Program-made: the position numbers and the translations under genes
Shown here: piece after piece, positions 5,528-49,851 of the stretch
Layout: each line of letters begins with the position of its first letter
Position numbering within the stretch: position 1 is the first letter of the stretch
Assembly: GCF_035645195.1 (NCBI RefSeq)
Contig: NZ_DASQNA010000002.1
Coordinates: forward strand, 1-64,000
Origin: Paenibacillus sp.
Lineage (GTDB): Bacteria; Bacillota; Bacilli; Paenibacillales; YIM-B00363
Direction: 5' to 3'
Length of the DNA stretch: 64,000 nt
Notes under the pieces: model-generated
Told to the model about the DNA's origin: nothing
Seen by the model: only the letters and a program-made list of their open reading frames with translations
The model's database searches: none

Positions 5528-5547
5528 CATATTTCGAGATAAGAAGA

Positions 5548-5640
5548 GGCCAGGGACCCCCGCACATGAGACTTCCTACTTACGGCTGCTTCCTTCCGGA
5601 CCTGACCGGGTTCGTAGGCACTCATCGCGAGGACCTGACC
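5548..5640 (-). ncRNA. ffs: Signal recognition particle RNA, short (4.5S) type
   Basis: The minus strand carries the SRP domain IV hairpin. The tetraloop and internal loop lie in CAGGTCCGGAAGGAAGCAGC (about 5590-5609), enclosed by the complementary ends GGTCAGGTCC... and ...GGGTCCCTGGCC. The RNA binds Ffh and directs membrane protein targeting. A promoter 7 nt before the first G and a terminator 20 nt beyond bound it to about 93-110 nt, so there is no room for the Alu domain of the 271-nt B. subtilis scRNA. It lies upstream of dnaX as in B. subtilis. Confidence 0.95.
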
Positions 5641-5647
5641 GAACTTT

Positions 5648-6358: not shown

Positions 6359-6423
6359 GTGGGTACCCCTCTTTCCGCCCTGAATCCTTGGCCGATTCAG
6401 AGTAAAATTACATAGCGACGTTT

Positions 6424-30484: not shown

Positions 30485-30710
30485 CGTTTCCCCCGGATCC
30501 GTCGATTCGACTTCGAATCGGGCCGCCTTTGCGCGCTCCCCTCTCTCCCGCCCCAGATGTTCACCCGTCATTTTCTATGAATCTATGCCGATGCCATCGC
30601 CCGTTTTGCGATTCTATCGGAACTTCAATTGATCACCTGAATATTTTGCTAGAATAGGAGGATTTCGACGAACGCTGTCGAATACGAATTAGGTCGAAAA
30701 TATCACTGCC

Positions 30711-30842
30711 AAAATTTCCGGCGCGTCTCGCCTCGCTTCGGAAATACGGGGGAACCATGTTGGGTGAATTGATCTCGCAATCAGGGATCATAGGGAACCT
30801 TCAACCGAACCCTTAAGCTAACCTCGTCGGCATCGGAAGGGG
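30711..30842 (+). ncRNA. Cyclic di-AMP riboswitch (ydaO/yuaA type)
   Basis: Conserved blocks of the ydaO-yuaA class appear in order: ACGGGGGAACCA (30746-30757), TTGGGTGAA (30760-30768), AGGGAACCTTCAACCGAACCC (about 30792-30812) and AAGCTAACCTCGTCGGCAT (30815-30833). The class binds c-di-AMP and usually switches off cell-wall hydrolase and potassium genes; the next gene is an NlpC/P60 hydrolase, a typical target. The ribosome binding site GGAAGGGG (30835-30842) abuts and partly joins the closing stem. No terminator lies between the aptamer and the start codon. Confidence 0.92.
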
Positions 30843-30849
30843 TATACAA

Positions 30850-45908: not shown

Positions 45909-47654
45909 TTACCCCGCCGCGCTCGACTCCGCCTGCTGCCGCTCGAACTGCTCCTTATACCAACCGCCGCGGCGCAGCAGTTCTTCGTGGGTGCCCTCCT
46001 CGACGATGCGTCCGTCGTCCAGCACGATGATATGGTCCGCATGCTGCACCGCCGACAGCCGGTGCGTCACGATCAGCGTCGTCTTCCCTTCTCGGGCGCG
46101 GCGAATGTTGCCGATGATTTCGGCTTCCGTCTTCGCGTCGACCGCGGACAAGGCGTCGTCGAGAATCAAAATTTGCGGATCGGCGAGCAGCGCCCGCGCG
46201 ATCGATACGCGCTGCTTCTGACCGCCGGAGAGCGCGACGCCCTTCTCGCCGACGAGCGTCTCGATTTTGCTCGGAAGGAACTCGAGATCCTTCTTGAAGG
46301 CGGACAGCGCGATCGCCTCTTCGAGACGGTCCGCGCCCGCCTCGCCCTTCGCGTAAAGAATATTTTCGCGTACGGTGCGCGAGAACAGGAACGGACTTTG
46401 CGGCACGTAGCCGATCCAGCCTTTCAAATCGTCGAAAGCGATCCGGTCGATGCGTTCCCCGCCGACGGTGATCGATCCTTCGCCGAGCGGATATTCGCGC
46501 AGCAGCTGCTTGACGAACGTCGTCTTGCCGCTGCCCGTGCGCCCGACGATGCCGAGCGTCTGCCCCGGCTCGAGCTTCACGGAGACGCGGTCCAAATTGT
46601 CGCGCTCCGACGTCGGGTACCGGAACGTGACGTCGCGGAACTCGATCGCGCCCGCGCGTTCGACGCGCTTCGCCTGCGGATGCTCGACGACGTCCGGCTC
46701 GTAGCGAAGCGTCTCGTTGACGCGGTCGAGCGACGCGTTGCCCCGCTGCATGATGTTGATCAGCTCGCCGATCGCGAACATCGGCCAAATGAGCATGCCG
46801 AGGTAAACGTTGAACGTGACGAGCGCCCCGACCGTCAGCTCGCTCCGGAACACGAGGTACGCGCCGTACCCGATGCCGATCAAATAGCTGAGCCCGACGA
46901 CGATTTTGATCGTCGGTTCGAACAGCGCGTCGATGCGGGCGACCGCGATGTTTTTGTCGAGCACGTCCTGTGTCACGCCCGCGAATCGGCGCTCCGCCGC
47001 CCGCTCCTGCACGAACGCCCGGATGACCCGCACGCCGGAGATCGTCTCCAGCACCCCGTCGTTCATATCCCCGAAGGCGTCCTGCGCTTTCTTGAACCGT
47101 TCGTGAATCCACTTGCCGTACACCTGAATGCAGATCGCCAAAATCGGCAGCGGCAAAATCGCCGCGAGCGTCAGCTTCCAAGACACGAGCGTCACCATGA
47201 CGACCAGCAGCGTCAGCATCCAGACGGTGGAGTCGACGAGCGTCAAAATGCCGAAGCCGGCGGTCATGGACACGTCCTTCAGGTCGTTCGTCGCCCGCGC
47301 CATCAAGTCCCCGGTCCGATGCTTCTCATAGAACGTCGGCGTCAGCCGGAGGAAATGGCGCATGAGCCGAGACCGCAGCAGCCGCTCGACGACGAAGGCG
47401 CCGCCGAACAGCTGGTACATCCATATGTACGTCACAACGTACACGAACGCGGCGATGCCGCCGAACAGCAGCAGCGTCTCCGTCAGCTTCGCGGGCGTCA
47501 TCGTTCCCTGCTGCATCCAGTCGATCGCGTCGCCGACCAGCTTCGGCGGAATGATTTCCAAGATGCCGACGAACAGCAGCAGCGGCACGGCGATCGCGTA
47601 GCGCTTCCACTCCAAGCGGAAAAACCAACCCAACTTGCCAAGTACGGATAACAT
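45909..47654 (-). CDS. bmrC: ABC exporter half-transporter, BmrC-like (degenerate ATPase site)
   Basis: 581 aa. Six helices plus an ATPase with Walker A GRTGSGKTT, signature LSGGQ, and Walker B ILILDDALSAVD, where the catalytic Glu is Asp, as in BmrC of B. subtilis. This marks the non-hydrolysing half of a heterodimer with bmrD. The ATG at 47654 has GGGAAGGGGAG 5 nt upstream. The long leader contains a leader ORF and alternative hairpins, so expression is probably controlled by ribosome-dependent attenuation. Confidence 0.9.
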   Translation of the reverse strand: MLSVLGKLGWFFRLEWKRYAIAVPLLLFVGILEIIPPKLVGDAIDWMQQGTMTPAKLTETLLLFGGIAAFVYVVTYIWMYQLFGGAFVVERLLRSRLMRHFLRLTPTFYEKHRTGDLMARATNDLKDVSMTAGFGILTLVDSTVWMLTLLVVMVTLVSWKLTLAAILPLPILAICIQVYGKWIHERFKKAQDAFGDMNDGVLETISGVRVIRAFVQERAAERRFAGVTQDVLDKNIAVARIDALFEPTIKIVVGLSYLIGIGYGAYLVFRSELTVGALVTFNVYLGMLIWPMFAIGELINIMQRGNASLDRVNETLRYEPDVVEHPQAKRVERAGAIEFRDVTFRYPTSERDNLDRVSVKLEPGQTLGIVGRTGSGKTTFVKQLLREYPLGEGSITVGGERIDRIAFDDLKGWIGYVPQSPFLFSRTVRENILYAKGEAGADRLEEAIALSAFKKDLEFLPSKIETLVGEKGVALSGGQKQRVSIARALLADPQILILDDALSAVDAKTEAEIIGNIRRAREGKTTLIVTHRLSAVQHADHIIVLDDGRIVEEGTHEELLRRGGWYKEQFERQQAESSAAG

Positions 47655-47676
47655 GTGTTCTCCCCTTCCCTTATGC

Positions 47677-47770
47677 AAAAAAAGCACACCGCGGCTGCCA
47701 GACATGCGCGATGTGCTTTCTTCATTCCCCAATGAAAATGAAAAAGCGCACGCCACGAATGAACTTCGTG
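47677..47770 (-). promoter_or_regulatory. Attenuator: alternative hairpins before bmrC
   Basis: Reading leftwards: hairpin CACGAA-GTTCA-TTCGTG (47770-47754); a second stem in which TTTTCATT pairs AATGAAGA around GGGG, extended by GTGC...GCAC (about 47751-47712); and a terminator in which AAGCACA(T)CGCG pairs CGCG(G)TGTGCTT, then T-run (47719-47677). The AAAGCACA element is shared by the second stem and the terminator, so they exclude each other. Confidence 0.75.
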
Positions 47771-47808
47771 ACCTGCGCCGTATTTCGATTCTAACGTAGC
47801 CGAGCCGA

Positions 47809-47925
47809 TTACGCCAAAGGAGCGTAAGGCCGGAGACGCCGAAGCGGAATCGCGGAGATCACGTTCATGCTGCGAACCATAGTTCCGAAATCGAAACGCA
47901 AGCGAGCGACAATTTGCAGCATCAT
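47809..47925 (-). CDS. BmrB-like leader peptide
   Basis: 38 codons, too short to be called routinely. ATG at 47925 with AAGGAGTG 8 nt upstream; it begins MMLQIVARLRFDFG, is rich in Arg, and ends RPYAPLA at TAA (47811-47809). It sits between the promoter at 47982-48011 and the attenuator. In B. subtilis the bmrB leader ORF couples ribosome stalling by antibiotics to transcription of bmrCD. Position and structure match; I do not claim sequence similarity to BmrB. The last codons form a hairpin (TTACGC...GCGTAA) that a ribosome would cover. Confidence 0.7.
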   Translation of the reverse strand: MMLQIVARLRFDFGTMVRSMNVISAIPLRRLRPYAPLA

Positions 47926-47969
47926 GAACGATCACTCCTTCCTCTTCACTGAGAATTTTAGGAAAATGT

Positions 47970-48011
47970 TTTACAAGTGGTAAATTACCATGCGCCCGCG
48001 GGCAGTGTCAA
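47970..48011 (-). promoter_or_regulatory. Promoter of the leader-bmrC-bmrD operon with overlapping palindrome
   Basis: TTGACA at 48011-48006, an 18-nt spacer, TAATTT at 47987-47982. The inverted repeat TTTACCACTTGTAAA (47984-47970) overlaps the -10 and extends to the likely start site, where a repressor could bind. The -35 overlaps the last codons of the truncated Fur-like gene. Confidence 0.65.
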
Positions 48012-48283
48012 CACATTTTTTTACAGTTCGTCCACCCGTTCTCCGCGTTCCGAGACTCTTCCGGCAGGACGCCGAGCTTGTCGAACACGTGGACCGCGCT
48101 CCGCACGGACGTCGGCTGCAGCTTCGGGAACCCAGGAGCGAGCCGCCGGTACAGCTTGTCGACCGCGGGCCGCCCCGGCTCCTGATATATAGCTTCCAGC
48201 ACGGCCGAACGGAGCGGCGTCAGTCGAATGCTAAGCCGTTCCAGCTTCGCTTTGGCGGTTTGCAGGTCGCGCTGAGCGCCCAT
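48008..48283 (-). CDS. Short Fur/PerR-like protein, DNA-binding part only
   Basis: 91 aa against about 145 for Fur and PerR. LSIRLTPLRSAVLEAIYQEPGRPAVDKLYRRLAPGFPKLQPTSVRSAVHVFDKLGVL resembles the Fur winged helix, but the protein then ends in an unrelated tail with no metal-binding dimerisation domain. The start is strong: AAGGAGGTG lies 5 nt before the ATG, 42 nt after katA. No missing second half is seen in other frames, since the bmr promoter begins where it ends. It may be a decayed perR paralogue or a small DNA-binding protein. Confidence 0.6.
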   Translation of the reverse strand: MGAQRDLQTAKAKLERLSIRLTPLRSAVLEAIYQEPGRPAVDKLYRRLAPGFPKLQPTSVRSAVHVFDKLGVLPEESRNAENGWTNCKKMC

Positions 48284-48325: not shown

Positions 48326-49816
48326 TTAGGAATGACGCCCCGCCGCCGCCTGGGCCAAATATCCCGAAATATCGATGCCGAGACCTTGCGCGATGCGCTG
48401 TCCGAGCTCCGCGTCGCCGCGGTAGAAGTTGCAGATCGCGAGCAGCCGCGTCCGCTCGTGCACCGCGCCGAGTTCGTCGATCAAATTCGCCACAAGGTTG
48501 TCCTGTTCTTGCTTCGTAAATTTGCGGTAGGTGTAGCTCACTTGGCCGAAGTCGTTCGTCTTGGCGATGTTCTCGCGTCCGGCGAACCCTTCGAGCGGCA
48601 TCCGGCTGTCGCGGTATTCCGGCGCTTCCTTCGGCGTATCCGCGTGCCGGTTCGGCTCGTAGTTGATGGGCGACGGGTTCTGCTTCGTCTGCATGAGGCC
48701 GTCCCGCTGGTTGTTGCGCACCGGCGCGTACGGGCAGTTGATCGGCAGGTTCAAGTAGTTGGCGCCGAGACGGTACCGCTGCGTATCCGGATACGAGAAC
48801 AGCCGGCCCTGCAGCAGCTTGTCTTCGGACGCCTCGATGCCCGGCACGAGCGCGCTCGGCGCGAAGGCGACTTGCTCGACTTCGGCGAAGAAATTGTCCG
48901 GATTGCGGTTCAGCGTCATCGTGCCGACCTTCTGCAGCGGGACGAGCTCCTCCGGCCACAGCTTCGTCGGATCGAGCGGATCGAAATCGAAGCCGTCCAT
49001 ATCTTCGGGAGCGATGATTTGCACGTACAGGTCCCACTTCGGGAAGTTGCCGGCTTTGATATTATCGTACAAGTCTCTCGTCGCGTGGTTGAAATCTTCT
49101 CCCTGCACCGCTTTGGCTTGCTCCCGTGTCAAGTTCCGGACGCCTTGGTGCGGCACCCACTTATATTTTACGTACACGTAGTTGCCGTGCGCGTTGATCC
49201 ACTTGAACGCGTGTACGCCGTTGCCTTCCATCTCGCGGTAGTTCGCCGGCGTCCCGAAGTCGGACATGACCCACGTCATCATATGCGTCGATTCCGGCGT
49301 CAAGCTCATGAAATCCCAATACCGGTCGCCGGACTGAAGGTTCGTATCCGGGGCGGGCTTCAGCGAGTGGACCATGTCCGGGAATTTGATCGCGTCGCGG
49401 ATGAAAAACACCGGAAGGTTGTTGCCGACCAAGTCGTAGTTGCCTTCCTCCGTGTAAAATTTCGTCGCGAAGCCGCGCGGGTCGCGGGCCGTCTCCGGCG
49501 ATCCCTGCCCGTGGATAACCGTGGAAAACCGGACGAACACCGGCGTCTCCGTCCCCGGCTCCTGCAGAAATTTCGCCTTCGTGTACCGTTTCATGCCGTT
49601 CGTCAGGACGAACACCCCGTGCGCGCCGGCGCCCCGGGCATGAACGACGCGTTCCGGAATGCGTTCGCGGTCGAAGTGGGCGAGCTTCTCGATCAAGTGG
49701 TAATCTTCAAGCAGCGTGGGTCCTCGCTGCCCCGCCGTGCGGGAGTTTTGATTGTCGCCTACGGGCATTCCTTGATTCGTCGTTAACATCGGGGGACGTT
49801 GGTCGTTCATGCTCAT
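48326..49816 (-). CDS. katA: Catalase
   Basis: About 496 aa, small-subunit (clade 3) heme catalase. The catalytic His is in RVVHARGAGAHGVF (near 60), the Asn in FIRDAIKFPDMVHSLKP, and the heme-ligand Tyr in RLFSYPDTQRYRLGANYLNLPIN. It breaks down hydrogen peroxide. The ATG at 49816 has GAGGTG 6 nt upstream. The promoter carries a near-perfect PerR box, so peroxide induction is likely. Confidence 0.97.
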   Translation of the reverse strand: MSMNDQRPPMLTTNQGMPVGDNQNSRTAGQRGPTLLEDYHLIEKLAHFDRERIPERVVHARGAGAHGVFVLTNGMKRYTKAKFLQEPGTETPVFVRFSTVIHGQGSPETARDPRGFATKFYTEEGNYDLVGNNLPVFFIRDAIKFPDMVHSLKPAPDTNLQSGDRYWDFMSLTPESTHMMTWVMSDFGTPANYREMEGNGVHAFKWINAHGNYVYVKYKWVPHQGVRNLTREQAKAVQGEDFNHATRDLYDNIKAGNFPKWDLYVQIIAPEDMDGFDFDPLDPTKLWPEELVPLQKVGTMTLNRNPDNFFAEVEQVAFAPSALVPGIEASEDKLLQGRLFSYPDTQRYRLGANYLNLPINCPYAPVRNNQRDGLMQTKQNPSPINYEPNRHADTPKEAPEYRDSRMPLEGFAGRENIAKTNDFGQVSYTYRKFTKQEQDNLVANLIDELGAVHERTRLLAICNFYRGDAELGQRIAQGLGIDISGYLAQAAAGRHS

Positions 49817-49851
49817 CGTATGCACCTCGTTAAGTTAGTATTTTTATTAAT

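Follow-up and report, generated by a model that had tools for sequence, protein, structure and literature searches.

The bmrC and bmrD orthologues of this Paenibacillus sp. are likely to be preceded by a ribosome-controlled transcription attenuator composed of five RNA segments, as judged from sequence comparison. The leader probably senses slowed ribosomes and would then let transcription continue. Central to this reading is a segment inside the leader ORF (segment 1), which chooses its partner: segment 2 or, together with its surroundings, the ribosome binding site (SD) and start codon of the ORF itself (segment 0). Across many Bacilli, the predicted switch is conserved more as paired RNA than as peptide. 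The features identified in the window (the whole analyzed stretch of 64,000 nt) are the following:

47982 to 48011, minus strand: promoter TTGACA-18-TAATTT (TTGACA at 48011-48006, 18-nt spacer, TAATTT at 47987-47982), read directly and conserved in the genus
47970 to 47984, minus strand: palindrome TTTACCACTTGTAAA / TTTACnnnnnGTAAA over the -10/+1 region, read directly and conserved in six genus members
47935 to 47940, minus strand: segment 0, the leader SD AAGGAG, whose GGAG pairs with CUCC in the ORF
47923 to 47929, minus strand: GUUCAUG, the start-codon part of helix 0:1, pairing with CAUGAAC at 47869-47863
47809 to 47925, minus strand: leader ORF of 38 codons, MMLQIVARLRFDFGTMVRSMNVISAIPLRRLRPYAPLA
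47854 to 47863, minus strand: segment 1, CGUGAUCU(CC), inside the ORF, core at 47863-47856
about 47802 to 47833, minus strand: hairpin spanning the ORF stop codon, with an equivalent visible in genus members
47767 to 47778, minus strand: segment 2, GCGCAGGUCACG, 5' arm of hairpin 2:3 (T1)
47746 to 47757, minus strand: segment 3, CGUGGCGUGCGC, 3' arm of T1
47741 to 47745, minus strand: U tract after T1, read directly
47713 to 47751, minus strand: antiterminator stem 3:4, -16.6 kcal/mol
47677 to 47721, minus strand: intrinsic terminator T2, formed by segment 4 (AAAGCACA, 47719-47712) and segment 5 and followed by a U tract
45909 to 47654, minus strand: bmrC orthologue, 581 aa
43712 to 45844, minus strand: bmrD orthologue, 710 aa

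On the minus strand, the promoter, SD, 38-codon ORF, three hairpins, and intrinsic terminator thus precede bmrC and bmrD in this order. A sequence-only reading of the same DNA had already pointed to the promoter, to an ORF of 38 codons with a strong ribosome binding site, to a hairpin over the ORF end, and to three hairpins of which the last is an intrinsic terminator, and all of these were recovered at the positions listed above. It had also held that the 5' arm of this terminator is shared with an upstream stem, which agrees with the overlap of AAAGCACA with the 47751-47713 stem, and that the downstream genes encode a heterodimeric transporter. The latter assignment was borne out by full-length matches of BmrC and BmrD, for which the best solved-structure matches were B. 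subtilis YheI and YheH (807 and 860 bits). T1 is regarded as terminator-like because a U tract stands directly 3' of the hairpin, and across 65 leaders the median content after T1 was 6 U in 8 nt. Segment 1 can pair with segment 2 through CGUGAUCU or with the SD through CUCC. A simple consensus scanner detected neither the leader promoter nor the leader terminator, because TAATTT departs from the consensus at too many positions and the loop of the terminator exceeds the limit of the scanner.

The palindrome overlapping the -10/+1 region, a similar form of which was seen in other families, represents a possible operator or repressor site. The leader is preceded on the same strand by a catalase gene (48326-49825; Pfam Catalase, 624 bits) and then by a 91-aa ORF (48008-48283), which has no Pfam match and which, by reading, we take to resemble a truncated Fur/PerR-type protein. 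Elsewhere in the window, Rfam matches comprised a c-di-AMP riboswitch (30697-30847), an L31 ribosomal protein leader (6369-6402), and the small SRP RNA (5544-5641), while over 47500-48200 Rfam returned no match even at E up to 1 and none above the gathering threshold.

The leader was found upstream of bmrC in all five other sampled genomes of the genus, whose BmrC proteins are 79-88% identical. Using covariance models built from six sequences of the window's genus (R1) and from 32 sequences (R2), we obtained matches upstream of bmrC in many genera and in several families of the order and of the class Bacilli. At E up to 1e-4, R2 matched in 88 of 395 order genomes and in 47 of 399 class genomes, counts that include some false matches, and BmrC was encoded directly downstream in 42 of the 49 inspected loci. 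Several matches were set aside as chance: the R1 match in the sister genus (G007, L037), which lies inside an unrelated coding region, and likewise the R1 matches L064, L065, L068-L071, L073, L080, and L081 and the R2 matches L113, L114, L132, L133, L135, and L136. On inspection, no such leader precedes the bmrC-like paralogues that the genus also carries (L007-L012, 47-51% identity), and a search of a plasmid collection returned distant homologues only, with up to 45% identity. One locus (L110, genome G684) bears the full leader type with the ORF and both terminator hairpins, but an MFS transporter stands downstream, suggesting that the switch may move between exporters. Another (L090, genome G517) retains T1 and T2 and lacks the ORF, constituting a natural ORF-less variant.

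An SD with an ORF of 21-45 codons was present in 63 of the 65 related leaders, and its stop codon always stands before T1, 2-58 nt ahead of segment 2. Among 32 sequences, the pairs of T1 (2:3) and T2 (4:5) were standard in 96.5% of cases, and 12 of the 24 pairs showed changes in both partners; none of 500 shuffles reached this level, and slid versions dropped to 22-64%. Segment 1 lies within the ORF some 50-90 nt before segment 2. The two read GUGACCU:AGGUCAC in most of the window's genus and vary together elsewhere, as in GUAACCCG:CGGGUUAC (genus g28), CGUGGCCU:AGGCCACG (g48), and AAGCAACC:GGUUGCUU (g24). Since segment 1 had been chosen as the stretch that best complements segment 2, foreign partners were given the same freedom of choice within the search region in the permutation test. 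Cognate partners scored 18.9 over the 65 leaders against 15.3 (sd 0.4) for swapped ones (0 of 2000 permutations), and 18.65 against 15.23 (sd 0.60; z 5.7, 0 of 5000) with one leader per genus. The stretch before segment 1 covaries in turn with the SD-AUG spacer and the start codon (z 5.3 with one leader per genus, 0 of 5000). For 3:4, the signal of z 4.0 over 30 leaders fell to a non-significant z 1.6 with one per genus (n = 12). In all these partner permutations, relatedness between genera is only partly corrected. Comparison of the leaders therefore shows covariation for the predicted helices 1:2, 2:3, and 4:5 and for the start-codon side of 0:1. The sequence-only reading had expected a conserved leader with a diverged peptide, and had proposed aligning the ORF and the paired bases across relatives; both are conserved while the peptides are dissimilar, so that this comparison does not speak against the leader.

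The 311-nt leader folds better than 100 of 100 dinucleotide shuffles (z -3.95); z is -6.5 for the post-ORF hairpin at 47778-47746 and -4.2 for the terminator stem. In the window, stem energies were about -11 kcal/mol for 1:2, about -22 for T1, about -24 for T2, and about -30 for the 0:1 region, and single folds of most leaders predict the SD and start codon to be paired with the 3' part of the ORF. Folding with ribosomes at different positions had been suggested in the form of a covered ORF. Once the leader is transcribed, T1 and T2 win at equilibrium in every ribosome state; we therefore rejected equilibrium folding as proof of a switch, and the decision must be kinetic, with 1:2 able to act only in this manner. 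When segment 2 has emerged and segment 3 is not yet made, the ensemble probability of 1:2, averaged over 54 leaders, was 0.85 with ribosomes held early against 0.41 with none. It was 0.29 with a ribosome at the stop codon, 0 with a ribosome over segment 1, and 0.69 when stop and start were each occupied by a ribosome, which indicates that brisk re-initiation would also favor read-through. In the window leader, 1:2 is favored over 0:1 even without a ribosome and, if the model holds, an earlier formation of 0:1 must prevent it.

These probabilities suggest a chain in which the SD gate would be followed by 1:2, by failure of T1, and by failure of T2 through 3:4, with 0:1, 2:3, and 4:5 forming the termination set and 1:2 and 3:4 the read-through set. 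With no ribosome, or with a fast one already past, the ORF would fold onto its own SD and start codon (0:1), after which the post-ORF hairpin T1 and then T2 would form and transcription would stop. A translation inhibitor holding ribosomes near the leader start would instead keep the SD covered and segment 1 exposed; the latter could pair with segment 2 as it emerges, delaying T1 and freeing segment 3 for pairing with segment 4, so that T2 would fail and bmrCD would be transcribed. With a ribosome over segment 1, 1:2 would be blocked. We infer both this order of events and the antibiotic trigger.

The peptide itself is presumably not the sensor. Leader peptides differ widely between species, and their recurrent V-T is encoded by the codons of segment 1. 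The frame of the segment 1 core is the same in 41 of 46 leaders, which allows for a weak peptide contribution, and another frame is used in the other five; the preceding AAUUUCAU is also read in a different frame in other leaders, and the frame differs even inside genus g28 (L055 against its relatives). Reading of the same RNA in different frames favors selection at the RNA level. It is against this background that an arrest leader of the ErmDL or TlrB kind has to be weighed, in which the nascent peptide would stall drug-bound ribosomes. The window peptide does contain VARLRF, whose RLR (codons 8-10) fits R/K-X-R/K, a motif of macrolide stalling on which the B. subtilis tlrB/yxjB leader relies (PMC6851288). 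Nevertheless, with 14 occurrences among the 63 related peptides and 12.5 expected from shuffles, this motif is not enriched, and it was rejected as the sensor; together with the dissimilar peptides and the off-frame leaders, this makes specific arrest unlikely.

The model published for B. subtilis, a plain attenuator of two hairpins (PMC4191407), would need only a ribosome that prevents the antiterminator, and the overlap of 3:4 with 4:5 that it requires is present in the window. It assigns no role to 0:1 and 1:2, however, and leaves the covariation of segment 1 with segment 2 and with the SD/start region unexplained, for which reason we consider it quite improbable. Even less credible is the absence of any ribosome control, with tandem terminators that insulate or are read through constitutively and an incidental ORF. 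The dominance of T1 and T2 in equilibrium folds and their persistence in the ORF-less L090 would suit this explanation, but it conflicts with the near-universal SD and ORF, with the stop codon always placed before T1, and with the covarying pairing of a segment inside the ORF. The ribosome-controlled attenuator accordingly remains the preferred reading.

In the E. coli trp attenuator, with which PMC4191407 also draws a comparison, mutually exclusive 1:2, 2:3, and 3:4 stems are set by ribosome position. The window leader appears to share this stem logic and differs in having no tryptophan codons, an SD gate, and a second terminator, and in its inferred signal, which would be slowed translation in general. 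The B. subtilis vmlR leader likewise combines a uORF, an anti-antiterminator containing it, an antiterminator, and an intrinsic terminator, and there a stalled ribosome prevents the anti-antiterminator (PMC9226507). Its uORF, however, encodes a tripeptide with an unpaired SD ahead of an ABC-F gene, whereas the bmrC-type leaders have 21-45 codons, a paired SD, and an exporter downstream. The tlrB (yxjB) leader also couples a macrolide-sensing ORF to transcription attenuation, but relies on arrest at RYR in a peptide of 9 residues (PMC6851288); no arrest motif of this kind is conserved in the bmrC leaders.

The closest counterpart is bmrB. Induction of bmrCD by 50S inhibitors in B. subtilis requires translation of bmrB, and loss of this translation lowers expression and abolishes induction (PMC4191407), a finding in agreement with an SD gate. 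The sequence-only reading had called the window leader a bmrB-type design, and this stands for the orthologous genes, the small leader ORF with its SD between promoter and bmrC (translation being predicted), and the intrinsic terminator with overlapping antiterminator and anti-antiterminator (PMC4191407), with only partial covariation for 3:4. It does not extend to the placement of the terminators, nor had it included the pairing of segment 1 with the post-ORF hairpin and with the SD/start codon. For B. subtilis, bmrB has been described as containing the terminator, and the role of the anti-antiterminator was left unclear (PMC4191407). In the window, by contrast, the ORF ends about 30 nt before T1, the first of two tandem terminator-like hairpins, and an ORF-internal segment 1 provides both 1:2 and the SD/start gate; none of the 63 ORF-bearing leaders has the terminator within the ORF. 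We treat the early stop as an architectural difference from bmrB and not as a defining feature. The window leader is by descent one of the bmrCD type whose design is more elaborate and well conserved, and its mode of action very likely resembles that of bmrB and of trp attenuation.

A close Bacillus relative whose BmrC is 93% identical to that of B. subtilis (L162) carries a GTG ORF of the annotated type across the terminator and, in another frame, an ATG ORF with a strong SD (MPRNLCVYQTVSYWRGKPYVLFD) that stops before it. Of its two nearest relatives, L164 has the GTG ORF through the terminator and L163 does not, while both have the SD-ATG ORF. As the strain 168 sequence lay outside this comparison and an in-frame bmrB-gfp fusion is fluorescent (PMC4191407), we keep the SD-ATG ORF as a lead from L162 and its relatives and not as a correction of the annotation. 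A second micro-ORF with an SD was seen just upstream of bmrC (L163-L172, L177, L179, L180, L183, L189, L198-L202, L204, L207, L222, L225, and L226), with its stop 24-53 nt before bmrC; the window leader lacks it. In L110, a micro-ORF (MLVIISKKFEGDFDGG-stop) and the MFS transporter follow the leader. In 25 of the 30 detected second micro-ORFs, the C-terminus is [DE][SG][GD]-stop or nearly so, as in KEYLESG-stop, GDPESG-stop, and KESLEGD-stop, and since N-termini and third codon positions vary, this end looks selected as peptide. Tentatively, and with somewhat more doubt than confidence, these observations could be joined into a broader proposal: an uncatalogued, Bacilli-wide RNA family acting as a peptide-independent sensor of translation speed, whose ORF segment either sequesters its own SD/start or disables two tandem terminators in chain, with the SD-ATG ORF off the annotated bmrB frame as the functional B. 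subtilis leader ORF and the micro-ORF as a further layer in Bacillaceae.

The covariation provides a specific base-pairing model together with mutations able to test it. It suggests that ribosome position, and not peptide sequence, is what is sensed, and it gives reason to look again at the bmrB region and at which of its ORFs serves as leader. Such a switch shows how an intrinsic multidrug exporter could respond to many unrelated translation inhibitors across the Bacilli.
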